A stretch of DNA of 64,000 nucleotides from Synergistes jonesii (GTDB lineage Bacteria; Synergistota; Synergistia; Synergistales; Synergistaceae): NCBI RefSeq assembly GCF_000712295.1, contig NZ_JMKI01000016.1, positions 1 through 64,000 of the forward strand. The letters are read 5' to 3'. A program made the position numbers and the translations under genes. Shown here one piece after another: positions 1 through 55,831 of the stretch (the first letter of the stretch is position 1; every line of letters starts with the position of its first letter). The notes beneath the pieces are model-generated. The model did no database searches and was not told the origin of the DNA. It saw only the letters and a program-made list of their open reading frames with translations.

Positions 1-782
1 GGTTTTCGCCTATCTCGATTATCTCCGCTTTAAGCACGAGCCTCTGTTGAAAGGCGTTCTATCGGACACTGCCCGCGTTCGATGAAGTCGCAGGGGACGA
101 CGTTGGCCTCGCCTATGCGAAGGTTGTTTATCTTTTTAGGCATTCCGCCGCTCATCATGAGCGGTATGGAGGTGGTGCCGCCGCCCGATACAACTTCAAG
201 CTCCCTGCCGATGACTTCTTCTATTTTCATTGCATCGGCGGAAAGCAGGGAGAGGTTTTCTGCCGTCGGAATGACGGAGCCGTAGCAGGTGAGGTTTGTA
301 CCCGCGCCGTAAAGGCGCAGGTTTTTGAGTTCCCGCTCAATGTAGACCGCCGTCTCGATAAATTCACGGCTGTCAAAAATCCCTTCCCGCAAGTCGCCGA
401 GATCCCTCATCAGGATCACATTGTGGACGACGTCGGCAGTCTCCGCCGCGCGGTCGAGCGCGCGCATGGTTTCAATTTCGGAGTTGAGGCTGATATCGCA
501 GAGCTTTACGACGTCGGCCGCTTCGGAGAGCATCGGGATGCGCAGCCCAAGCGTCTTTACCGGAAGTCCCGCTTCTTTCACGGCGGCCAGATGCGGCAGC
601 CTTGAGCTCGCGAGGGTCTTATACCCCGCTTCAAGCAGCGCGTCCCTTATCTCGGGGATAGCGTTGAAACCTTTCAGCACGGCGAAGGGCTCGACGCCTC
701 TCTTTCTGCATTCACGAAGAAGTATGCCTGCGTTGCGTCTGATAACGTTCCTGTCTATCTCAAGCAGCGGATATCTATTCAT
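1..782 (-). pseudogene. orr: Ornithine/alanine racemase family PLP enzyme, frameshifted and cut by the window edge
   Basis: Fold-III PLP racemase resembling clostridial ornithine racemase (L-ornithine to D-ornithine in amino acid fermentation). The likely PLP lysine is K37 in AVLKGFN, and the glycine-rich GGGTTS and LRIGEANV segments follow in family order. I start it at the ATG at 782 (AGGTG six bases upstream) rather than the GTG at 791. The frame stops at 30 after IERLSTEARA, but the next frame at once reads FQQRLVLKAEIIEIGEN, the family's expected continuation. One base therefore seems lost near 50-56: a real frameshift or a sequencing error. The 3' end lies outside the window. The neighbouring NhaC antiporter suggests an amino acid fermentation unit. 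Confidence 0.75.
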
Positions 783-888
783 GGGCTTCACCTTTCTAAA
801 AATGGCCGAAGGCCGCGTCGACGCCCTTCGACCGACTTCTCTTCTATCCTCTCGCTTCCCTTATCGACGCCGAACTCGGGCGAAACAA

Positions 889-4585: not shown

Positions 4586-5133
4586 TCATATACAGCCGAG
4601 CGGGATAGTCACGTCGCTTTCGCCAAGCGGCACGATCTTATCGTAAAGACAGACCACGCCGCCTGGGCCGCGTTTGACGCCCGGCATTCTGTCAATATAC
4701 GAGAATGAGGAAATATCTTTGCCCGAAGGGTCAGCGTGCTCTTTTATTTCTATTGGATACAGCGTTCCGGCATCACAGACGAGCAGGTCTATTTCGACGC
4801 CGTCATGGTCGCGCAGAAGTACAGCGGCGGATCGGCGATGCCGGTGTAAAGGCTGCGCACGTCCCTTTCCAAATATGCCCTGAGATAGGAGCTGTAATAC
4901 ACATCCCAGTCATACTCAGGATTTGCCGACATAGCCGGCATACTGCCGCGATGGATAGCCCTCCACACATCGCCGCGATCTACGCTCTCGGGATGCTTTC
5001 CGCGCTCAGAAAAATATTCTTTAGAAGGGATGAACGGCTTCTCAAATTCAACGCCGGAAATTTCGCGCATTGAAAGCCCGTACATCGTTCGGAAGAATGC
5101 CATATCGCCCACAGTTCGCCTAAACGCGCTAAA
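4586..5133 (-). pseudogene. AAA/DUF4143-type ATPase, internally deleted and truncated relic
   Basis: Leftward, 5133-4830 encodes a middle piece (VGDMAFFRTMYGLSMREISG, then PFIPSKEYF, VWRAIHRGSMP, YLRAYLERDVRSL) typical of the AAA_14/DUF4143 ATPases that resemble toxin/antitoxin-linked or orphan ATPases. It then shifts frame into the C-terminal piece (RDHDGVEIDLLVCD, YPIEIKEHADPSGKDISSF, MPGVKRGPGGVV) and stops at 4586. The N-terminal P-loop half is missing and roughly 150-200 residues between the two pieces are gone, so the gene is dead. Its 5' truncation coincides with the 72-bp repeat that begins at 5134. Confidence 0.75.
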
Positions 5134-5205
5134 AACGGCGGAGCGATGAAGCTGCTCTGCCGTTCAAACGGGATTTCACATGCCCTGCGCACGGCACAGA
5201 AGCAT
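5134..5205. repeat. 72-bp dispersed repeat, copy 1
   Basis: It matches 26208-26279 at about 60 of 72 positions with no gaps. The left third, AACGGC...GCCGTT (5134-5163), is a hairpin; read leftward it is followed by a T run, like a terminator. Both copies sit exactly at a gene truncation. The stretch from 5206 to 5391 shows no gene I recognise. Confidence 0.7.
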
Positions 5206-5391: not shown

Positions 5392-6837
5392 CTACCTCGT
5401 TTTGACGCCGGCGTACTCTTCGAGCTTGCCTGTGAGCTTCACGCAGTCGTTGATGAGCTGGCGCGGCGACGTGCCGCCGCGGAGCAGCTCAAGCCAGCCT
5501 TCGCCCTTCTCGCTGAGGATTGCAGGTTTGTCGGCCCCGAGCAGCTGCGTGCCGGCCTGCGGCCAGAAATACCCGCCGTTTTCCTGGCGGCCCTGGAGCA
5601 GGAAACGGATGTCCCCGCTTTCCATCGCCTTGTAGAGGTCGACGCCTTTCTCGTTCTGATAGACGGCGACCGCGGAACAGATGCCGGCGTCGTCCTTGCG
5701 CTGCCGGTTGATGATGAGGCCGCATACCGTGTCTTTGAATTCCGTCATGAAATTGAAATCTCCCTGGGAGTCGCCGGCTCCAAAGATCGGGCCGCGCCCG
5801 TTGTAGAGCGGAGCGATGATCTTGACCACGGTCTCCGACTTGCCGACGCCCTGCGTCTGCGCATGAAAATCATAATCATACTCCGGCAGGTAAACGCCGT
5901 CTTTGATTTTATAGGTCATAGCGACGACGTCGCGGACCCCCGCGAGCCCCCAGCAGCGCAGCAGCGCGCGGATGGTCTGAACGGGGGAGGCTGAATTGAT
6001 CCACACATCTATTCCATTCGCGTCCAGCTTCCTGATAAGCTCGCGCATCTCGTCGGAGACTCCGGTGGAGAGCCTGAAGCCCACGCTTACCGGACCGCAG
6101 ATGCTCCTATATCCCTTCGGGCTCTCCCATTTGCCCTTAGTCCAGTTTTCCGGGGCCTTCTTTCCGTACTCGGTGTAGAATTTGTGCGACTCGTATGCGA
6201 GCCGTTCCGCCTCCGCCGGCGTCATGCAGGCCATGTGATAGCCGACCCATGGGTATGAGACGGAGACGCTGTAGTTGTCCCCTATAGCGTCGTACATCAA
6301 ACGTATCTTCGCAGCGAATTCTTTCCAGTCGTCGCCTGAGATCCACTCTGATTTTTTAGCGGCTCTCGAGGAGTCGGGCGCGACGTAGCCCTTAGCGCAG
6401 AGCTTCCGGTACGCTGCGCTCACATCCTTGGCGAACTCGGCTATCGTATGACCTCCGTAGTCTTTGCCGAGATCTTTATTGACATCGGGGATGCCGGTAG
6501 TGAGGATATCGTACATGTCCTCCGGCCTGACGGCGTAGCGGAGGTTTTCCGCCTGGAAAATCAGCAGCTGTTCCTGAACGTCGGTCAGCGAGATGGTATT
6601 GTCGCAGTCGAAAACCGCGTACGGCCTTATCTCGGGATTGTAGCTTTTGCTGTTTCTTCCGTACGCGTCGAAAAGCTGATTGATGACGTATTTGACGTTA
6701 GGCTCCCAGCCTTCGCCCGTCAGGTACTGCGTAGCCCTGCTCGAGTATGGCTCCGGCGCCTCGGTGCCCGACGCCGGGGCAAAAGACAGTACGAGCGCTA
6801 ACAGCGCAAATAAGAAGATTTTGGAAATCCTTTTCAC
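5392..6837 (-). CDS. Exported HAD-superfamily phosphatase
   Basis: The product of 481 residues starts at GTG 6837, seven bases after GGAGG; the longer reading to 6894 would bury the signal peptide. Residues 1-25 (VKRISKIFLFALLALVLSF...) form a typical signal peptide, so the enzyme should be periplasmic. HAD motif I is FDCDNTISLTD, unusual in replacing the usual DxDxT with DCDNT; a late FGAGDSQGDFNFM fits motif IV. The large insertion between them suggests a phosphoserine-phosphatase-like cap. The substrate is unknown. It is separated from the Cof-type gene by 76 bases and both read left, so they may share a transcript. Confidence 0.85.
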   Translation of the reverse strand: MKRISKIFLFALLALVLSFAPASGTEAPEPYSSRATQYLTGEGWEPNVKYVINQLFDAYGRNSKSYNPEIRPYAVFDCDNTISLTDVQEQLLIFQAENLRYAVRPEDMYDILTTGIPDVNKDLGKDYGGHTIAEFAKDVSAAYRKLCAKGYVAPDSSRAAKKSEWISGDDWKEFAAKIRLMYDAIGDNYSVSVSYPWVGYHMACMTPAEAERLAYESHKFYTEYGKKAPENWTKGKWESPKGYRSICGPVSVGFRLSTGVSDEMRELIRKLDANGIDVWINSASPVQTIRALLRCWGLAGVRDVVAMTYKIKDGVYLPEYDYDFHAQTQGVGKSETVVKIIAPLYNGRGPIFGAGDSQGDFNFMTEFKDTVCGLIINRQRKDDAGICSAVAVYQNEKGVDLYKAMESGDIRFLLQGRQENGGYFWPQAGTQLLGADKPAILSEKGEGWLELLRGGTSPRQLINDCVKLTGKLEEYAGVKTR

Positions 6838-6913
6838 AAGTAATTCCTCCAATTGTTTTTTAATTAAGCCCGGAGGCTCTTTTATATCCGTCACCGACTG
6901 CGTCCATTTTCAT

Positions 6914-18952: not shown

Positions 18953-20323
18953 CTATCTGCTCAGGAATACGGAAGCGTCTCCGGCCAGCGGAGTCAGCTT
19001 TCCATTCTCGGAGAAGCCCATCTTTTCGAGCCACTCGTCAAATTCTTTTATCGGGCGCAGACCAAAGACCTCGCGCAGCGAAGCGGCCTCGTGGAAGCCC
19101 GTGCACTGGTACATGAGCATGCAGTCGTCTCCCTGGGGGACGCCCATGACATAGTTGCAGCCGGCCGCGACAAGAAGCGTGGCCAGATTTTCAATGTCGT
19201 TCTGGTCGGCCTTCATATGGTTCGTGTAGCAAGCATCGCAGCCCATTGGGATTCCCGTCAGTTTACCCATAAAATGGTCTTCAAGTCCGGCTCGGATAAC
19301 CTGCTTTGAGTCGTACAGATATTCCGGGCCGATGAATCCGACTACCGTGTTGACCAAATAGGGTTGGTAACGCTTCGCAAATCCATAGCAGCGCGCCTCC
19401 ATCGTAAGCTGGTCCCATCCGTTATGCGCGTCCGACGAAAGCTCTGAGCCCTGCCCCGTCTCGAAGTACATGACATTGGGGCCGGTACTGCTGCTGCGGT
19501 GCAGCATCATATCCCTGCCCTCGTCGAGCATCTGGGAGGTAAGCCCGAAGGCTTCGTTTCCCTTTTGGGAGCCGGCTACGGACTGGAACATGAGCCCTAT
19601 CGGAGCGTTGAATTTCTTAATCGCCTCCGTCTGAGTGGTAACGTGCGCCAAAACGCAGACCTGCGTCGGCACCTCCCATTTGTTTCTGAAATCTTCCAGC
19701 ATATGCAGGATGCGCGCCACGCTCTCGACCGAATCGTCGACCGGGTTGACGCCGATGACCGCGTCCCCGCAACCGAGGCTCAGCCCTTCCATCGTCGAGG
19801 CGATGATCCCCTTGGGGTCGTCGGTCGTGTGATTCGGCTGCAGACGCGAGGAGAATGTGCCTGGCAGCCCTATCGTGGTGTTGCAGTGAGCCGAGACCCT
19901 GATCTTCTTCGCAGCGTAGACAAGGTCAAGATTGCTCATCAGCTTGCAGACGGCCGCCACCATTTCGCTCGTGATCCCTCTCGAAGCGTGTCTGATCATC
20001 CGCGGCGTCGTCGTCTCGCTCAGTATCCATTCTCTGAACTCGGAGACCGTCATGTTCTTGATGCCGTCATAAATCGTCTCGTTGACGGCGTCCTGAATGA
20101 TTCTGGTCACTTCGTCTTCTTCGTACGGTACGGCCGGCGTGTTGCGTAGTTCTTCCAGAGTAACCTCCGACAGAACGACCTTGGCGGCGACTCTTTCTTC
20201 CGCCGATTCCGCGGCGATGCCGGCAAGCCTGTCGCCGGACTTCTCTTCATTCGCCTTGGCCATTACCTCGCGGAGAGATTTGAATTCGTAGTCATGGCCA
20301 AAAAGCCTGGTTTTTAATTTCAT
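18953..20323 (-). CDS. eutB: Ethanolamine ammonia-lyase large subunit EutB
   Basis: The catalytic (alpha) subunit of the B12-dependent ammonia-lyase, 456 residues, close to the usual 453. The substrate and cofactor regions are visible in RVSAHCNTTIGLPGTFSSRLQPNHTTDD, LSLGCGDAVIGVNPVDDS and MYFETGQGSELSSDAHNGWDQLTMEARCYGF. The start ATG 20323 follows GAGAGGTGAGAG. It lies 41 bases downstream of eutA, the reactivase. A 33-codon stub of another eutB is found upstream of the operon promoter at 26279-26380. Confidence 0.98.
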   Translation of the reverse strand: MKLKTRLFGHDYEFKSLREVMAKANEEKSGDRLAGIAAESAEERVAAKVVLSEVTLEELRNTPAVPYEEDEVTRIIQDAVNETIYDGIKNMTVSEFREWILSETTTPRMIRHASRGITSEMVAAVCKLMSNLDLVYAAKKIRVSAHCNTTIGLPGTFSSRLQPNHTTDDPKGIIASTMEGLSLGCGDAVIGVNPVDDSVESVARILHMLEDFRNKWEVPTQVCVLAHVTTQTEAIKKFNAPIGLMFQSVAGSQKGNEAFGLTSQMLDEGRDMMLHRSSSTGPNVMYFETGQGSELSSDAHNGWDQLTMEARCYGFAKRYQPYLVNTVVGFIGPEYLYDSKQVIRAGLEDHFMGKLTGIPMGCDACYTNHMKADQNDIENLATLLVAAGCNYVMGVPQGDDCMLMYQCTGFHEAASLREVFGLRPIKEFDEWLEKMGFSENGKLTPLAGDASVFLSR

Positions 20324-25951: not shown

Positions 25952-25973
25952 CTTTACTCCTCATAAAGGCAAA

Positions 25974-26053
25974 AAAACAAAAAAGCGCCCTTGCCTAAAA
26001 GCAAGAACGCTACATCACATCCGCACAAATGTCTCTGCTACGTCACAGAAACA
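25974..26053 (-). promoter_or_regulatory. Dual-hairpin/terminator leader before eutG (EutV antitermination site)
   Basis: In leftward RNA order: P1 at 26053-26030, stem TGTTTCTGT/GCAGAGACA with hexaloop GACGTA; seven bases; P2 at 26022-26005, stem GGATGT/GCGTTC with hexaloop GATGTA, a weaker stem with three wobble pairs; then a terminator at 26011-25984, AGCGTTCTTGC/GCAAGGGCGCT around TTTTAG, ending in T6 and further T runs. Again the P2 right arm (26010-26005) is part of the terminator's left arm. Loop pair and geometry match the eutA leader. Confidence 0.82.
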
Positions 26054-26068
26054 CCACTACACGGAATG

Positions 26069-26096
26069 ATTATACTTGGTCGGTGCTTTTTGTCAA
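26069..26096 (-). promoter_or_regulatory. Promoter of the eut operon
   Basis: Leftward TTGACA (26096-26091), a 16-base spacer and TATAAT (26074-26069): both boxes are full consensus. Initiation is expected near 26062, giving a leader of about 111 bases. Such a strong promoter makes sense if control is by antitermination rather than by initiation. The stretch 26097-26207 shows no gene. Confidence 0.88.
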
Positions 26097-26207
26097 GATT
26101 TTTCTGTCGCGTGTCGTTGCGCCTGTGTCGCTGCTTCCAATTGTCGCCGTCGAGCGATGACGTCAGCGCATAAATGTTATGAGAAATATCGCGCGCGCAA
26201 AAAAGAT

Positions 26208-26279
26208 AACGGCGGAGCGATGAAGCGGCTATGCCGTTCAAACGGTATTTTATATGCCTTACGCAAACTATAGAAGCAT
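26208..26279. repeat. 72-bp dispersed repeat, copy 2
   Basis: It pairs with 5134-5205, with about 60 of 72 bases identical and no gaps. The conserved AACGGC...GCCGTT hairpin (26208-26237) reads leftward into a T-rich run. Its right edge is the exact point where the eutB stub ends, and its left edge is about 110 bases before the eut promoter. Confidence 0.7.
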
Positions 26280-26380
26280 CATGCGGTTACCACAGAGCGT
26301 TCTTCGTTAGCCTTGCCAAGAACATCCTTCGCGTCGTAAAAACTATAGGTACGACCGTAGAGTTTTGTTTTTAGAATCAT
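26279..26380 (-). pseudogene. eutB: 5' stub of a second eutB
   Basis: Leftward from ATG 26380 the frame reads MILKTKLYGRTYSFYDAKD, VLGKANEERS, then four unrelated residues and a stop at 26279. The first 30 residues align with the intact EutB start (MKLKTRLFGHDYEFKSLRE, VMAKANEEKS). It is the N-terminus of a different, more A/T-rich eutB allele, cut where the 72-bp repeat begins. It shares no long DNA identity with the intact gene, so it is not a recent partial duplication. Confidence 0.8.
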
Positions 26381-26384
26381 ATGC

Positions 26385-26495
26385 TTACATTCCAAAGATT
26401 TTTGGCAATATAAGTTTCGGCAGTGTTAGAGAGAGTGCAGGCCAGTATGTAGTGACTACCAACGTCGGTACTTAAGCAAAAATAATAAGTATCAT
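26385..26495 (-). pseudogene. C-terminal relic of a TRAP large permease (DctM)
   Basis: Leftward, 26495-26385 reads MILIIFA-stop-VPTLVVTTYWPAL, then SLTLPKLILPKIFGM and a stop. It aligns with the end of the DctM at 38603-39943 (FGWIPVLIVTTYVPAL, SLFLPRLILG); the internal stop replaces the conserved Trp. The stop lies four bases before the eutB stub, so the two were once neighbours in an operon. Confidence 0.72.
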
Positions 26496-26508
26496 GATAG
26501 GGAGTTTT

Positions 26509-26872
26509 CTATTTCACTGAATTAACGAGCTGCGGCATGGTATCTTTGCCAATATTCTTTGTAAATTTAGACCATGTTTTAGCTTTTACCTGGCTTACGT
26601 ATACAGTAAGTTGTTTGTCATTCAGCTTAATTATCTCTACAATTTTTGAAGAAATACGACTGTGGACCGAAAACCTTTGGAAGATCTTTATAATCCTTTG
26701 CTAAGGTACGGTATGCTAAAAACCAGAATTTTTTGCAAAATGGCGGCACATCAAGCGTGATATTCGCATAAATATCTTCTTTCGACGGGTTACAGGAGAA
26801 CAGGCAATTTCTTAATACTATTATACAAAAAAGTCCGCGACAAAACAGCGCTTGAGCCCGTTTGGATGACAA
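26509..26872 (-). pseudogene. Frameshifted small gene of unknown function
   Basis: The leftward frame from 26872 runs through ITLDVPPFCKKFWFLAYRTL and KDLPKVFGPQSYFF, and stops at 26627. A second frame continues from the A-run near 26637 as SSKIVEIIKLNDKQLTVYVS, WSKFTKNIGKDTMPQLVN and stops at 26509. Joined, they give about 120 residues, possibly with an N-terminal membrane or lipoprotein-like segment (FCIIVLRNCLFSC). I do not recognise the family. The low GC sets it apart from the eut genes. Confidence 0.5.
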
Positions 26873-27194
26873 TACTCCGGCATGCCTCCGCCTTTCTTTC
26901 GGAGGAAGACTATTTTACTGTATGGCACTTTTTAAAATACCATTTTGAAGCTTGACAATCCACACCATATTAATTAAGGTATACTTATTAAGATTAATAA
27001 ATATTTTATACAAGAAAGTGTGCGTTAAGTATATTGGGAATTATTAAATGAGCCACAGTATGGTTTGAAAAATCGGCAAAGTGCGTTGGGCAGGCGGGTA
27101 TAAAGCCGATGGATATCTAAATCATAGCAAAAAGGTCTAAAAATAACCTTAGCGAATCAGAGACAGTAAATCCACAAGAAAGAAGTGATCAACG
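26873..27194. other. Gene-free AT-rich stretch
   Basis: No coding signal in any frame. A TTGACA near 26955 and TATACT near 26983 are too far apart (22 bases) for a standard promoter. The AT-rich ATTAATTAAGGTATACTTATT region resembles part of the site upstream of the GntR gene (ATATTAAGGTAT near 36752). The stretch probably marks the left edge of the low-GC island. Confidence 0.4.
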
Positions 27195-27407
27195 ATGTTC
27201 AATCCGACCGTCAACACAAAATTTATCGGGCTTTTCGGCAATCCGCTGGGGCAAAGCGCGGCGGCTTATCTGCACAACAGCGTCTATCAGGCGCTGGACA
27301 TGGACTGCTTTTACGCGCCGTACGAAATCGAAATAGAGGACATCGAGCATGTCGTAAAGAATCTCAAGAGATTCCATTTCGGCGGCGCCTCTGTGACGAG
27401 TGCTTAG
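27195..27407 (+). pseudogene. N-terminal stub of a shikimate dehydrogenase-like gene
   Basis: The first 70 residues (NTKFIGLFGNPLGQSAAAYL, HNSVYQALDMDCFYAPYEIE) are the substrate-binding domain start of AroE/YdiB enzymes, with the GNPLGQS motif. After FHFGGASVT, where the family has the conserved N-V-T-x-P-x-K, it reaches S-A-stop. The NADP domain and most of the rest are gone. Within the low-GC island, it may have been the first gene of the quinate/shikimate-type cluster that follows. Confidence 0.78.
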
Positions 27408-27501
27408 CCGCTCCAGGAAATACTTCGCGGAGCACGGCATCGTATAGTGGTTTTGGACGGAGCCATATGGATTAAAAACTTATAAATTTGAGGTGAATTT
27501 C

Positions 27502-38602: not shown

Positions 38603-39943
38603 TTAATTGACACCCAATATGAGCCGCGGTAGGAACAACGACAACGCAGGGACATATGTCGTAACGATCAATACAGGAATCCAGCCGAAAACAATGAAGC
38701 ACAGCGTAGGCCTTAGCATTTCATTTATCGGCGCCTTTGATATACTGCTTGAAAGGTAGAGAAGCGGCGCGCATGGAGGCGTTATATTGCCGAGCCCAAG
38801 GTTCACAGCGACGATTGCAGCGAAATGCACCGGATTCACCCCTATCTCCTGTATAATCGGGATAAGTATCGGTGTTGCAAGCACACAGGCGCTGCAGTCA
38901 TCCATCAGCATCCCCAGTACTATCATAAATATGTTCAGCATAAACAAAATCACATACTTATTTGTTGATATCGAATACAGGATTTTCAAAAGAAGCTGGG
39001 GGACGTCTTCCATGATATATATTCTGCTCAGGACGCTGCACGCAAAGAGCATAATCATAATGGCTCCGGTAGCCGTCACAGCTTCGATCATCGTATTGTA
39101 AAGACCTCTCACTGTGAGCCCCTTATAAATATACATGCCGACCGGCAGAGCATAAATTACTGATACGCCGGCTGCCTCAGTAGGCGTCATTATGCCGCTA
39201 TAAATACCTCCAAGGACAATTACAGGCATAAAGAGCGCCGGTACCGCCTCGCCAAATTTAGTGTGGAAAAAGGAGAATTTTTTTCTCTGCTTCGGAACAA
39301 CCCTATAAAAGTCTTTTTCTTTATCTTCAATATCTTTATCTGATACTACAATTATGTTTTTATTGTTGCGGAGCATGTAGCAGTTTAGAACCGCAAGCAG
39401 CGTCGTAAGGATGATCCCAGGAATGATTGTCGCAAGAAAGCTCGCAAGGACCGACTGCCCTCCCGTCCATGAGTAAAGGATCATTATCGAGCTCGGCGGA
39501 ATAAGCATTCCCAATACAGCGGTCGAAGCAAGCAAAGCGGCGCAGTGGCCTTTAGGATAGTTGGCGCGTTCAAACCTTGGGAACATAATGGAGCCAATAC
39601 ATGTCAGCGTCGCACAAGCGCTTCCCGTAACGGAACCGAATATGGCGCACGAAACAGTGGTTATGATTCCCAGCCCCCCCCTTATGCGACCAACAAAGTT
39701 TTCTACGAGCCCAATCATCTTATCCGCTATATTCCCCTTTTCCATTAGGCCTCCAGCTATTACGAACAGAGGAATGGCAAAGAGGACTGTCGTACTTATC
39801 TTATCTATGCCGTACGGGATCATAAAGCTGGGATTGACATCGCCCATAATTACAAAAAACATAGCAGAGGCGAGGAATGCATAACATACAGGGATACCAA
39901 GTATCAATGCAGCAAATAAAATCACTATTCCAATAAAAATCAT
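38603..39943 (-). CDS. TRAP transporter large permease DctM, second system
   Basis: The 446-residue permease starts at ATG 39943, preceded by GGGGG; a reading to 39982 would cross the dctQ stop. Features: TGSACATLTCIGSIMFPRF, AVLGMLIPPSSIMILYSW, GGIYSGIMTPTEAAGVSVIYALPVG and the NITPPCAPLLYL motif. The C-terminus ends FLPRLILGVN. It and the two upstream genes form a leftward TRAP operon in low-GC DNA. A relic of a related gene lies at 26385-26495. Confidence 0.94.
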   Translation of the reverse strand: MIFIGIVILFAALILGIPVCYAFLASAMFFVIMGDVNPSFMIPYGIDKISTTVLFAIPLFVIAGGLMEKGNIADKMIGLVENFVGRIRGGLGIITTVSCAIFGSVTGSACATLTCIGSIMFPRFERANYPKGHCAALLASTAVLGMLIPPSSIMILYSWTGGQSVLASFLATIIPGIILTTLLAVLNCYMLRNNKNIIVVSDKDIEDKEKDFYRVVPKQRKKFSFFHTKFGEAVPALFMPVIVLGGIYSGIMTPTEAAGVSVIYALPVGMYIYKGLTVRGLYNTMIEAVTATGAIMIMLFACSVLSRIYIMEDVPQLLLKILYSISTNKYVILFMLNIFMIVLGMLMDDCSACVLATPILIPIIQEIGVNPVHFAAIVAVNLGLGNITPPCAPLLYLSSSISKAPINEMLRPTLCFIVFGWIPVLIVTTYVPALSLFLPRLILGVN

Positions 39944-39959
39944 TTCAACATACCCCCGC

Positions 39960-40466
39960 TTATTTGCCAACTGCGTCAGCATCAGGAGAACGCCGACATG
40001 CTTCTACAAAATCACGCAAAGCATACAGCAGCATAAGAAAAAGGCCGACGCCGACAGCTGCGTACTCTCCTATTAAAGGCAGCTTCCAGACAGCCGTCAT
40101 CGGCTTGTTTTTCCACGCGTACGCGAGCATGTCTACGCTCCAGTAACAGAACGCAAACCCTATGGCAACGGTAAGTCCAGCAGCAACTACGGCAAGAAAT
40201 TTTCTGATTTTAAAGTTTTTTACCATAGTCTGCAAAATATTAGCCGTTATCTGGTCATGTTTATAACTTGCGTACGCTGCCCCCATAAAGTAAAACCATA
40301 TCGCCATAAAGACTTCGATTTCTTCAATAGCGTAAAGATCCGTCTTAAGGACATAGCGGAATATGACTCCTAAGGTAATCAACGCAGGGAGCAGAAGTCC
40401 GACAAACAGCATTACCGCTCTCTTAAATTTTAAAAGCATAGACTGTAACTTAAGAAGAATCTCCAA
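39960..40466 (-). CDS. TRAP transporter small permease DctQ, second system
   Basis: A 168-residue small permease with four hydrophobic segments, including RYVLKTDLYAIEEIEVFMAIWFYFMGAAYA with the conserved acidic pair before helix 2. It is 16 bases upstream of the dctM start (leftward) and about 115 bases from the DctP gene. The start follows GGAAGATG. Confidence 0.92.
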   Translation of the reverse strand: MEILLKLQSMLLKFKRAVMLFVGLLLPALITLGVIFRYVLKTDLYAIEEIEVFMAIWFYFMGAAYASYKHDQITANILQTMVKNFKIRKFLAVVAAGLTVAIGFAFCYWSVDMLAYAWKNKPMTAVWKLPLIGEYAAVGVGLFLMLLYALRDFVEACRRSPDADAVGK

Positions 40467-40582
40467 AGAAACATCTTCCTTTCTAAAGCGTTACTTAGCC
40501 GAACATAAGAGATTAAAACCCGGGAAAAGAATGGGGTTAGGTTCTTTTCCCGGTACGGTGATTGGAAGAAAGCCCCTAAGTA

Positions 40583-41578
40583 TTACTTTTTTGCATATTC
40601 CCCGATCAATTCCTGTGTGAGCTCTTTTCCAAGCACCTTGTCGAGTTTAGGCCACACCATCTTACGGACGTAGTCAACAGTCGGCTTCAGCTGTTCTGGC
40701 GTGATTTTGACCACTTTTATACCAGCTTCTGCAAGTTTTTTCTGATACATAATTTCTTCTTGTTCGGCAATCTTGACAGCGTTCTTGTTAATTTCGGCTA
40801 CAGTTGATTCGATGAGTTTCTGATCCGACGGGCTCAGACCATCCCACGTTTTTTTGTTAATAAGCCACTGTTCAAGCTCCGTGTAAATATTCATCGGATA
40901 ATAATATTTCACAACATCACGGAACCCGAGATAACTGTGAACCGCCGCCCCACCGTACCAACCTTCAGCAACCCCGGTCTGAAGCGCCGTGTAGAGATCT
41001 GCGTAAGGGACAGAAACGGTGCGGTAGCCCATGCTGGTCATAGTCAGCTTCGCTACGTCGTTATTCGGAATACGGCACAGCACATTTTTAGGAACTTTTG
41101 GATCAAGCGGCTTGCTGGCCTCCTTAGTCAGACCAAGGCCACCGAAGCCATCCATAAAAAACCCAAGGAACTTAATATCCATCTTGTCGTGAAAACCGCT
41201 AACCTTTTTATACATCCAGCCGTTTGGATCAAAGAGTTTATAAAGTTCATGCCAGGAAGAAACAAGATAAGGAGTAAAATATATCTGCTGTTTCTGGTCA
41301 AACTTTGGTGGAATCGTTATTAGCGCCATATCAATGGTGCCTTTGCTGACTTCTTCGTAAATAAGTGCGTAATCGCCAAGTTGACCTGCGGGATATGTTT
41401 TTACTTTGATTTTACCGCCGGTTTTCTCCTCAATGATTTTCTTAAAATTCTCCATCTGTACAGAATTCTGGTGCGCTACCGGGTTTTGTCCGGCAAGCCT
41501 AAGCGTAAGGGCTTCGGCGAATCCTACGAACGAAAGAACGTAAACCATTACCAATAATGCACAAAATTTGTTTCTCAT
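40583..41578 (-). CDS. TRAP transporter substrate-binding protein DctP, second system
   Basis: The 331-residue binding protein has a signal peptide (FCALLVMVYVLSFVGFAEA). DctP markers: GQNPVAHQNSVQMENFKKII, GKIKVKTYPAGQLGD, and QTGVAEGWYGGAAVH. The position of the usual conserved Arg of the carboxylate site is near NVLCRIPNNDVAK. With the following DctQM and the ornithine-cyclodeaminase family gene it probably handles an amino or keto acid. The substrate is not known. Confidence 0.92.
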   Translation of the reverse strand: MRNKFCALLVMVYVLSFVGFAEALTLRLAGQNPVAHQNSVQMENFKKIIEEKTGGKIKVKTYPAGQLGDYALIYEEVSKGTIDMALITIPPKFDQKQQIYFTPYLVSSWHELYKLFDPNGWMYKKVSGFHDKMDIKFLGFFMDGFGGLGLTKEASKPLDPKVPKNVLCRIPNNDVAKLTMTSMGYRTVSVPYADLYTALQTGVAEGWYGGAAVHSYLGFRDVVKYYYPMNIYTELEQWLINKKTWDGLSPSDQKLIESTVAEINKNAVKIAEQEEIMYQKKLAEAGIKVVKITPEQLKPTVDYVRKMVWPKLDKVLGKELTQELIGEYAKK

Positions 41579-41681
41579 CAGATAATCCTCCCTCTTAATA
41601 TTTTTTTACATTAAAGTGATCCAAAGCTCACACAATAGGATTGAAGAGATTGCCCCCGTCCTTTCCAGTCATTAGTTTATT

Positions 41682-42668
41682 TTAATGTTTGACCCAAGTC
41701 CCTACTTTCTTTTCGACGGCCTTAGTATAAATGAGCCTTGCCGTCATAACGTCGTTGCAGGCTATGCCCATTGGGGCTGCCGTTCTGCGTCCCTTGAGCA
41801 CCACAGGCTTTTTGCCAACGATTACTTCGCTCATCTCTGCGTATATTTCTTGCTCAGTAGGATACCCCTGGAAGTATACCCCGCCACCTTGCATATATTC
41901 ATATTGACCACGGTCGTCTATTACATAGACCGGCGCTTCTGTCATAACGTCCGCACAGAACGCAGAATCATGATCCACAGCTATGCAGAGGACATCGTTC
42001 TTGAGATATGATTTTTTAACGAAACGCTGTGGATTTGCAAGCACTGGGCAACATGTAATCACGATGTCCGCGTCCTTGCAGGCCTCTTCAATCGACTTAG
42101 CCTTAACTACTTCAAGATCGTTAAACGCCGCTCTTGCGTCAGCCTCAAGCTTGTCCAGCTGTACAGCAAGCGGATCGTACGCAGCTACGGTTCTGAGAGC
42201 TGGGAACTGCGTCTTTATAGCATGCACGCTGATGCGCCCCTGGGTGCCGGCACCTATTACCGCTAGTTTAGAGCTCTTGGGGTCAGCGAAATATTTCGCA
42301 ATGACGGCACTTGCAGCACCGGTGCGCATCGTTGTCAGATATGTGGCGTCCATTACGGAAATCATGTGTCCATCGTTTGAATCGGTAATTATAAACAGAC
42401 CGATGTTATAAGGCATATTTTTCTGCAAGTTTTCAGGGAATCCAGATATCCATTTCTCTCCACATGTATCCACGCCTCCACCTATCCAGCATGGCATAGC
42501 ATGGATGTAGCAATTTTCTCTTGGGTGGATACCTATCTTAGCCGGCATTTCTACCTTGCCCTCACCCTTAAGACGCCAACCTTCTTCAACGGCCGATATG
42601 ACATCAGCCATGGAGATATTGAGCGATATAACATCGTCCTCCGAAAGCCATAAAACTTCATTCAACAT
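41682..42668 (-). CDS. Ornithine cyclodeaminase/mu-crystallin family dehydrogenase
   Basis: A 328-residue NAD(P)-dependent enzyme. The Rossmann motif is SSKLAVIGAGTQGRISVHAI near 130; the family substrate-binding stretch is near TTMRTGAASAVIAKYFADP, with Arg and Asp candidates and a late AVDHDSAFCADVMTEAPVYVIDD. Members include ornithine cyclodeaminase, ketimine reductase and alanine dehydrogenase. First gene of the leftward TRAP operon and divergent from the CdaR-type regulator, which likely controls it. Substrate inferred to be an amino acid or imine. Confidence 0.9.
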   Translation of the reverse strand: MLNEVLWLSEDDVISLNISMADVISAVEEGWRLKGEGKVEMPAKIGIHPRENCYIHAMPCWIGGGVDTCGEKWISGFPENLQKNMPYNIGLFIITDSNDGHMISVMDATYLTTMRTGAASAVIAKYFADPKSSKLAVIGAGTQGRISVHAIKTQFPALRTVAAYDPLAVQLDKLEADARAAFNDLEVVKAKSIEEACKDADIVITCCPVLANPQRFVKKSYLKNDVLCIAVDHDSAFCADVMTEAPVYVIDDRGQYEYMQGGGVYFQGYPTEQEIYAEMSEVIVGKKPVVLKGRRTAAPMGIACNDVMTARLIYTKAVEKKVGTWVKH

Positions 42669-42891
42669 AATATAGCCCCTCCTGTTAACATATTTCAGCT
42701 ACTAATTAATATTTTTGGGAAAACAGTTTCCAACTTAGAACTTTCCTCTACATCTTTAGTATAAATTTAAGATTAATAAAGTTCCCACCTTTCATCAAGC
42801 GATGTTTATATAAAAATATTTCAATTAGCCTTTATAAATATTATATGGTTTGCTATTATTAAAATCATTGGAATAATGTTAAAAGATTTTT

Positions 42892-42946
42892 CCTAAAAAT
42901 CACCTTTTTTAGGATAAATGCCTAACATATATTGCCTAAAAATCAC
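42892..42946. promoter_or_regulatory. Repeated operator-like motif in the divergent region
   Basis: CCTAAAAATCAC occurs at 42892-42903 and again at 42935-42946, 43 bases apart (about four helical turns). The first is also half of an inverted repeat with TTTTTTAGG (42905-42913). The gap between the divergent genes (42669-43069) is about 400 bases and AT-rich. The CdaR-type regulator is the likely binder; that is inference. Confidence 0.55.
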
Positions 42947-43069
42947 TAAGAGAAAAACCTATTTTTATATATTCTTTATGGCACTTGCATAATAACATTA
43001 AGTACATTATACTTTTTCTAAATATTTTCGCCTCGAAACCACAAATAATAATGAAGGGGAGCACGTAGT

Positions 43070-44293
43070 TTGTTCACAGATGTCCTGACTCAGTTCGCCC
43101 AAGAAATAGTTGAGAATACAGAGGCCATTATCGGGCACAATGTCACTATTACAGATAAAAACGGAATTATTATAGGGGTAACAAATAAGAAGCGCATAGG
43201 CACCCTTCATGCTTCTTCTTTTTCTGTAATTCAGAATGATACAGCTGAAGGGCTTTATGAAGAAGAAGCAAAAGCTATCGGTGTCCTAGAAGGAGTATGC
43301 CTTCCCATACATCTTGGGAAAGAAACAATCGGTACCGTATCAGTTGCAGGACGACCGGACGAAGTCGACAAATATGGACATCTTGTACAAAAAGAGGTCG
43401 AGCTGTTCTTACGAGAAAAATCGTTGACAGAGATATCAAAACTTAAAGAAAATGCACTCTGTAATTTAGTAAACCAAATACTTACGTTTAAACCCGACGA
43501 CGTAAACACGGATATAATAGTCTCATATGCAAAAAGCTTGGGATATAATTTTGAAAATGCAAAAATAATCATTTTAATCGACATCAACCACTTTTCAGAC
43601 ATTGTCAACAATATTCACAGATCGGAACGATATTCACATGAAGCAGAACTGCGCGTGCAAACAATCAAGCTTACTATTCTAAGCGTTCTACGAGGCATCT
43701 TCATCAACCCCCAGGATATTGTGATAAATATAGCTTCTGACAAATATGTAGCCTTGCTTGACCTATCCGGACGGCTGAACAAAGATATAAAGGCATACGT
43801 CGAAGAAAGGACTGAAACAGTTTTCAACGAGATGAGCCGACTCGGGTATTCCGCCATCGTCGGAATTGGATCCGTTTCCCCAAATATTGCAGGGCTTGCA
43901 GATTCATACCGTAGCGCATGCAAAGCCATTTCTATTGGAAATAAGGTAAAACGCAAATCGGGTATATACAACATTGAAAATTATGAGATTGAAGACTTGT
44001 TCCTATCACTGAACCGAGACACCGTAAAAAAATATATTAACCATGTGCTTGGCAGCCTCATTAATTCACCAATCTGGGACAAAGAGACAGAAAAAACTCT
44101 GCGAGAAGTCCTCAAAAATCCGTGCAGGCCTGGCTATATTTCCAAAAATCTCGGTATCCACAGGAATTCGTTGTATTATCGTATCGAAAAAATAGAAGAA
44201 TTTTCCGGAATCAATCTCAAAGACCAGAATGACTTCACGAAAATAAAAATCGCATTAATATTATATGATTTATTTTCCGCAATGAAAGATTAA
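43070..44293 (+). CDS. CdaR family (sugar diacid/PucR-like) transcriptional regulator
   Basis: The 407-residue regulator begins at TTG 43070, eight bases after GGGGAG. N-terminal diacid-recognition domain at about 1-135 (VENTEAIIGHNVTITDKNGIIIGVTNKKRIG..., LPIHLGKETIGTVSVAG), a middle GGDEF-like domain, and C-terminal PucR HTH (SKNLGIHRNSLYYRIEKIEEFSGINL) at about 355-395. It would sense a carboxylic acid. It faces the ornithine cyclodeaminase-TRAP operon across a 400-base gap that holds paired CCTAAAAATCAC motifs. Confidence 0.92.
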   Translation: MFTDVLTQFAQEIVENTEAIIGHNVTITDKNGIIIGVTNKKRIGTLHASSFSVIQNDTAEGLYEEEAKAIGVLEGVCLPIHLGKETIGTVSVAGRPDEVDKYGHLVQKEVELFLREKSLTEISKLKENALCNLVNQILTFKPDDVNTDIIVSYAKSLGYNFENAKIIILIDINHFSDIVNNIHRSERYSHEAELRVQTIKLTILSVLRGIFINPQDIVINIASDKYVALLDLSGRLNKDIKAYVEERTETVFNEMSRLGYSAIVGIGSVSPNIAGLADSYRSACKAISIGNKVKRKSGIYNIENYEIEDLFLSLNRDTVKKYINHVLGSLINSPIWDKETEKTLREVLKNPCRPGYISKNLGIHRNSLYYRIEKIEEFSGINLKDQNDFTKIKIALILYDLFSAMKD

Positions 44294-55427: not shown

Positions 55428-55831
55428 TTTCGCTCATCCTCTCTTCATCGGTATGTCCGGCGCGCGGAAGAATCGGCGAAAATACATAGAGGCGTAACAA
55501 ATACGGCCTGCCAACCCTTCCCCTTTCCAAAACGGGAGGCGCCTCCGTTTCCAAAGACACCCATTGGTCTTGTCCCATGAATAAAATTCGCAGGGGCTTT
55601 GACTCGGGGATTTAATCTTTTAATTTCAATTAAAATTATAGCAAAATAAATGTTTACGTCAAGAAAAATTTGCGATTCGGCGCTCTCTTTTTAGATAATA
55701 CAGTTCGACGATTCACACCCGGCGCAGGGCCGGCGCAAGTCGGTTATAATAGTGGCGGAGCAAAATCCAACGGCGCGGCGTCAAACGTATTGCCGGCCGG
55801 CCGCAGCGCTTTATGAAAGAGGTGCCTGTCA

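Follow-up and report, generated by a model that had tools for sequence, protein, structure and literature searches.

A truncated eutB gene (ethanolamine ammonia-lyase large subunit) lies immediately upstream of the present eut (ethanolamine-degradation) operon of Synergistes jonesii, in the same direction, and is read here as the surviving 5′ end of a decayed dctP-(dctQ)-dctM-eutB... operon (probability roughly 0.87). The DNA analysed (the window) comprised 64,000 nucleotides of contig NZ_JMKI01000016.1, positions 1 to 64,000. Comparison with related loci (genomes are given G numbers and loci L numbers) showed what the pieces are and how they are ordered, that they were once coding, and to which EutB clade the stub belonged. 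A second, non-orthologous eut locus once stood beside the present operon. The genes and gene pieces concerned were as follows.

26282..26380, minus strand: eutB stub; 29 codons (26380..26294) homologous to the type-2 EutB N-terminus, four non-homologous codons, TGA
26388..26501, minus strand: dctM 3′ end; last 38 codons with one in-frame TAA, 74% amino acid identity to G008 DctM (L084), 60 bits
26512..26640, minus strand: dctP 3′ end; last 43 codons, the identification resting on 44-49% amino acid identity to G008 and G026 DctP, 43-47 bits
26645..26722, minus strand: dctP internal piece, 65% amino acid identity to G008 DctP, 36 bits; in a different frame from the piece that follows
18953..20323, minus strand: resident intact eutB (type 1), Pfam PF06751, 728 bits
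5392..25951, minus strand: present eut microcompartment operon, from an iron-containing alcohol dehydrogenase to a HAD-type phosphatase (open reading frames and Pfam)

The minus-strand frame from 26380 to 26282 reads MILKTKLYGRTYSFYDAKDVLGKANEERS, then VVTA, then TGA (as one string, MILKTKLYGRTYSFYDAKDVLGKANEERSVVTA, with TGA after it). An open frame of 33 codons was thereby found where a preliminary description had placed a eutB start, but the EutB match, and with it the identity of the gene, rests on 29 residues and is absent in frame from the last four codons (VVTA). Past codon 29 a shifted frame reads GNRM against GD(R/K)L in relatives, approximately to the edge of the neighbouring repeat. 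Identity by tblastn was 52% to the resident EutB over 29 residues (E 1e-7, window) and 69-76% to type-2 EutBs (E ~1e-11). The genome-scale search was led by G013, G018, G032, G019 and G048 (69-76%, E 1e-9 to 7e-9 per genome), which excludes a chance match to EutB. Across 53 family genomes and 188 phylum genomes, the best matches were all EutB starts; a best match to another protein, which would have spoken against the preliminary identification, was thus not what was obtained. Pfam profile scanning of the 33-residue stub by itself gave no match, because the stub is too short. A scan of species genomes with a 48-residue query, based on exact eight-residue patterns that perhaps missed equal or closer relatives outside the phylum, returned three EutBs, none above 76%. 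At the DNA level the stub was 64-68% identical to the type-2 clade, with short stretches of 83-90% over 30-35 bp, and 52-53% identical to the resident eutB. Differences from relatives fell mostly at codon position 3 (for example 7/5/16 at positions 1/2/3 against G013). The genome holds only one complete eutB, and the stub is a gene remnant that lacks the catalytic part and cannot be functional. The preliminary description of a second, divergent eutB start just upstream of the eut operon, in the operon's orientation (both on the minus strand) and different in DNA from the intact gene, was borne out by these identities. It had also called the stub A/T-rich, which is mildly so (43% GC against 46.5% for the matching 99 nt of the intact eutB) and more evident for the whole remnant.

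An EutB maximum-likelihood tree of 37 sequences was used to attach the stub to each branch in turn. About 88% of the likelihood weight (0.88) fell in or directly at the clade formed by G013, G018, G019, G032 and G048; the placement rests on 29 sites, which leaves the exact branch within or near the type-2 clade uncertain. Small weights remained on distant EutB branches (Oscillospiraceae, Spirochaetaceae). Attachment as sister of the resident EutB was 14.8 log units worse (AU p ~0.001, approximate given few replicates), and the SH test against the same attachment was not significant (0.056). Judged by its sequence, the stub belonged to the type-2 Synergistaceae EutB clade (G013, G018, G019, G032, G048), distinct from the resident gene, which is 84-87% identical to EutB of eight other family members. 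The G013 eutB is on contig JAITOY010000016.1 of a Synergistaceae metagenome-assembled genome. Partial local duplication of the resident eutB, in an event that also made the 72-bp repeat, would account for the adjacency of the stub to the operon, the shared orientation and the flanking direct repeat. It is nevertheless extremely improbable: identity to the resident gene is 52-53% in protein and DNA against the higher values for the other clade, placement beside the resident EutB was rejected, and the stub is preceded by dctM, whereas the resident eutB is preceded by eutA. As a separate observation, G032, G019 and G120 (L079, L080 and L137) carry tandem pairs of different eutB genes, with the two clades side by side.

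The remnants 5′ of the stub were found when 25952-27500 was compared in all six frames with related loci. Their order on the minus strand is dctP piece, dctP end, dctM end and eutB start, with the eutB ATG following the dctM stop on the same strand after 4 nt. The three dct pieces scored 36, 43 and 60 bits, against a maximum of 25 bits for any query protein in 500 dinucleotide-preserving shuffles, and for all three the closest relatives were TRAP genes in G008 and G026. The internal dctP piece was 84% identical to G008 in DNA over 51 bp, and ~162 dctP codons are missing between it and the 3′ end piece. Differences between the dctM tail and its relatives were distributed 10/3/22 over codon positions 1/2/3; from the third-position excess in both the dctM tail and the eutB stub it follows that both spent most of their history as coding sequence. 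No dctQ sequence is left among the remnants, and the rest of dctM is also missing; dctQ was presumably once present, because relatives carry dctP-dctQ-dctM. As a counterpoint to the reading as a fossil operon, the closest relative of the fossil dctM, that of G008, has a phosphatase gene as neighbour and not eutB.

The stub abuts one copy of a 72-bp repeat, and the second copy lies beyond the far end of the operon.

26208..26279, minus strand: 72-bp repeat copy 2; abuts the eutB stub, 83% identical to copy 1
5134..5205, minus strand: 72-bp repeat copy 1; ~190 bp downstream of the stop codon of the final gene in the eut operon, with hairpin AACGGCAGAGC...GCTCCGCCGTTTTT

The preliminary observation that the stub is cut at the edge of a 72-bp repeat was correct, and the repeat is real. 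Two copies exist in the whole genome, in the same direction and at both ends of the present eut operon. No match was found in relatives, either in a 1.6-kb search or in the compared related loci, and a widespread element was rejected on these two grounds. Rfam search at the repeat gave no known RNA. On the minus strand, the direction of the operon, copy 1 forms a strong hairpin followed by TTTTT (folding z -2.3), and copy 2 folds no better than shuffles (z 0.4). Copy 1 was not flagged by a simple terminator pattern scan, probably because its loop exceeds the length allowed in the scan. Most likely this segment formed the old operon's 3′ end, as a putative terminator. In the simplest reading each copy once marked an operon's 3′ end, and the start of the old eutB was brought against the end of its own operon by a deletion; the present operon may also have been inserted beside a pre-existing copy. 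A chimeric assembly join at the repeat was considered, since the stub breaks off at the boundary of the repeat. Such an artefact is very unlikely, as the copies (83% identical) are too different to have been merged, and the several internal deletions, the stop and the frame change go beyond a single misjoin.

In the preferred reading, as the remains of a TRAP-eutB operon, the old operon presumably became redundant. Internal deletions would then have occurred within dctP, from the dctP end to the last 38 dctM codons, and between roughly eutB codon 29-33 and the 72-bp segment, with a nonsense codon and a frame change as further marks of decay. Former presence of dctQ is assumed in this scheme, as is the order of events, and the lost TRAP transporter would have served ethanolamine or a related amine.

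The surroundings of the remnant were compared between genomes, including the following neighbour.

27195..27404, plus strand: shikimate dehydrogenase stub, first 70 amino acids; 93% identical to its full-length counterpart in G030, ~1.47 kb missing

The right flank is a mosaic, and its first part is closely matched only by G030 among family members. The right neighbour of the fossil locus is itself decaying, since its shikimate dehydrogenase gene is cut after 70 residues; a few shared bases lie at the deletion junction (27395-27399). In the same-site comparison the left flank matched scattered contigs, so that no empty site was readable; the same-genus genomes G001 and G002 gave no eutB match and no right flank, and the whole fossil gene order at this site was preserved in no relative. 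Horizontal acquisition of a foreign eut fragment, perhaps already broken, together with the low-GC genes to its right would fit both the mosaic flank with its single close match in G030 and the composition of the remnant (38% GC over 26282-26800, against 54% for the window). This is improbable: the nearest EutB and DctM relatives were found within the same family, decayed DNA also drifts to low GC, and the compared intact TRAP genes are themselves just 43-47% GC. With the closest EutB and DctM in the same family, a foreign source is possible but unnecessary. The preliminary description had proposed that an older or foreign locus occupied the site before, or next to, the present operon; the stub is indeed what remains of a different eut locus next to it, one whose dctP and dctM remnants show another gene order, but earlier occupancy and foreign origin are unproven. 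Elsewhere in the window, a short open frame (4789-5112, minus strand) resembles a DUF4143-type ATPase fragment by eye and had no Pfam match, and a molybdenum cofactor riboswitch (Rfam RF01055, 60 bits) was found at 55504-55621 on the minus strand. Sequence from window positions 1-873 is repeated, 100% identical over 614-873 bp, in three further contigs of this genome (C47, C38 and C51), either as a multi-copy element or as an assembly effect.

The present eut operon is apparently intact, and its gene order is the same in relatives. By similarity, we take its genes to include EutV/W-like, PduL-like and RnfC/PduS-like members. Two predicted signals lie between repeat copy 2 and its first gene.

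26096..26069, minus strand: promoter-like TTGACA-16-TATAAT, 12/12 sigma-70-like
26011..25984, minus strand: terminator-like hairpin in the leader of the present operon

The predicted leader hairpin fits EutV-type antitermination. A HAD-type phosphatase gene (5392-6894, minus strand) is the last gene of the eut operon here as well as in G003 and G008, and such a gene also stands after the TRAP genes in G008 and G026; it is possibly an ethanolamine-releasing phosphatase. Capture of this gene from the old locus was considered and is disfavoured. It is more likely native, because a homologue ends the type-1 operon in G003 and G008.

TRAP-eut arrangements in relatives were compared with an intact TRAP system in the window.

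38603..41578, minus strand: intact TRAP transporter dctP (40583-41578), dctQ, dctM; DctM 76% identical to the eutB-linked G048 DctM

This system is accompanied by an ornithine-cyclodeaminase-like gene and a divergent PucR-like regulator (38603-44293). Directly 5′ of a type-2-clade eutB in G048, and ~60 nt away from it, is a complete dctM; after this eutB come eutC, eutL, shell proteins and eutE. An EutH-like permease was not found in this genome, which is 86% complete. G010 carries a TRAP system just 5′ of its eut operon. The recurrence of the TRAP-eut linkage (remnant, G048, G010) suggests that TRAP systems may feed substrate to ethanolamine ammonia-lyase. It speaks against this that most members of the type-2 EutB clade (G013, G019, G032) have EutH in the operon instead. 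A literature search for TRAP transporters with ethanolamine or eut found nothing relevant. It is conceivable, though somewhat doubtful, that Synergistaceae TRAP systems provide a non-canonical uptake of ethanolamine or a phospho-precursor, paired with a second EutB clade and replacing EutH, and that this genome swapped to an EutH-bearing microcompartment operon.

The remnant is an otherwise ordinary pseudogene, a known kind of thing that is made more informative by the TRAP pieces. With them, an oddity of 30 codons becomes a readable operon fossil, from which it is seen that a single lineage carried two non-orthologous eut systems next to each other and lost one of them. It also offers a concrete indication, open to testing, that ethanolamine ammonia-lyase can be supplied by TRAP transporters.

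Known systems were compared with the remnant and with the present operon. The present operon fits the EUT2 type of the microcompartment taxonomy (PMC4207490): its EutV/W-like two-component regulator pair, PduL-like phosphotransacylase and RnfC/PduS-like protein agree with what is described for EUT2 loci, whereas none of these genes is preserved in the remnant. With EutB (PF06751) the stub shares the N-terminal 29 residues, among them the motif KANEE(R/K)S, and the position of the start; EutB has ~455 residues with a catalytic barrel, of which the stub keeps 29. The TRAP operons dctP-dctQ-dctM (PF03480, PF04290, PF06808) of G008 and G026 have the same gene order and direction as the dctP and dctM pieces of the remnant, but a HAD phosphatase gene follows the TRAP genes there, whereas eutB follows dctM in the remnant. 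The DctM of G048 is of a different subtype from the fossil DctM (53% over the tail), but its gene stands directly before a eutB of the same clade, as in the remnant.
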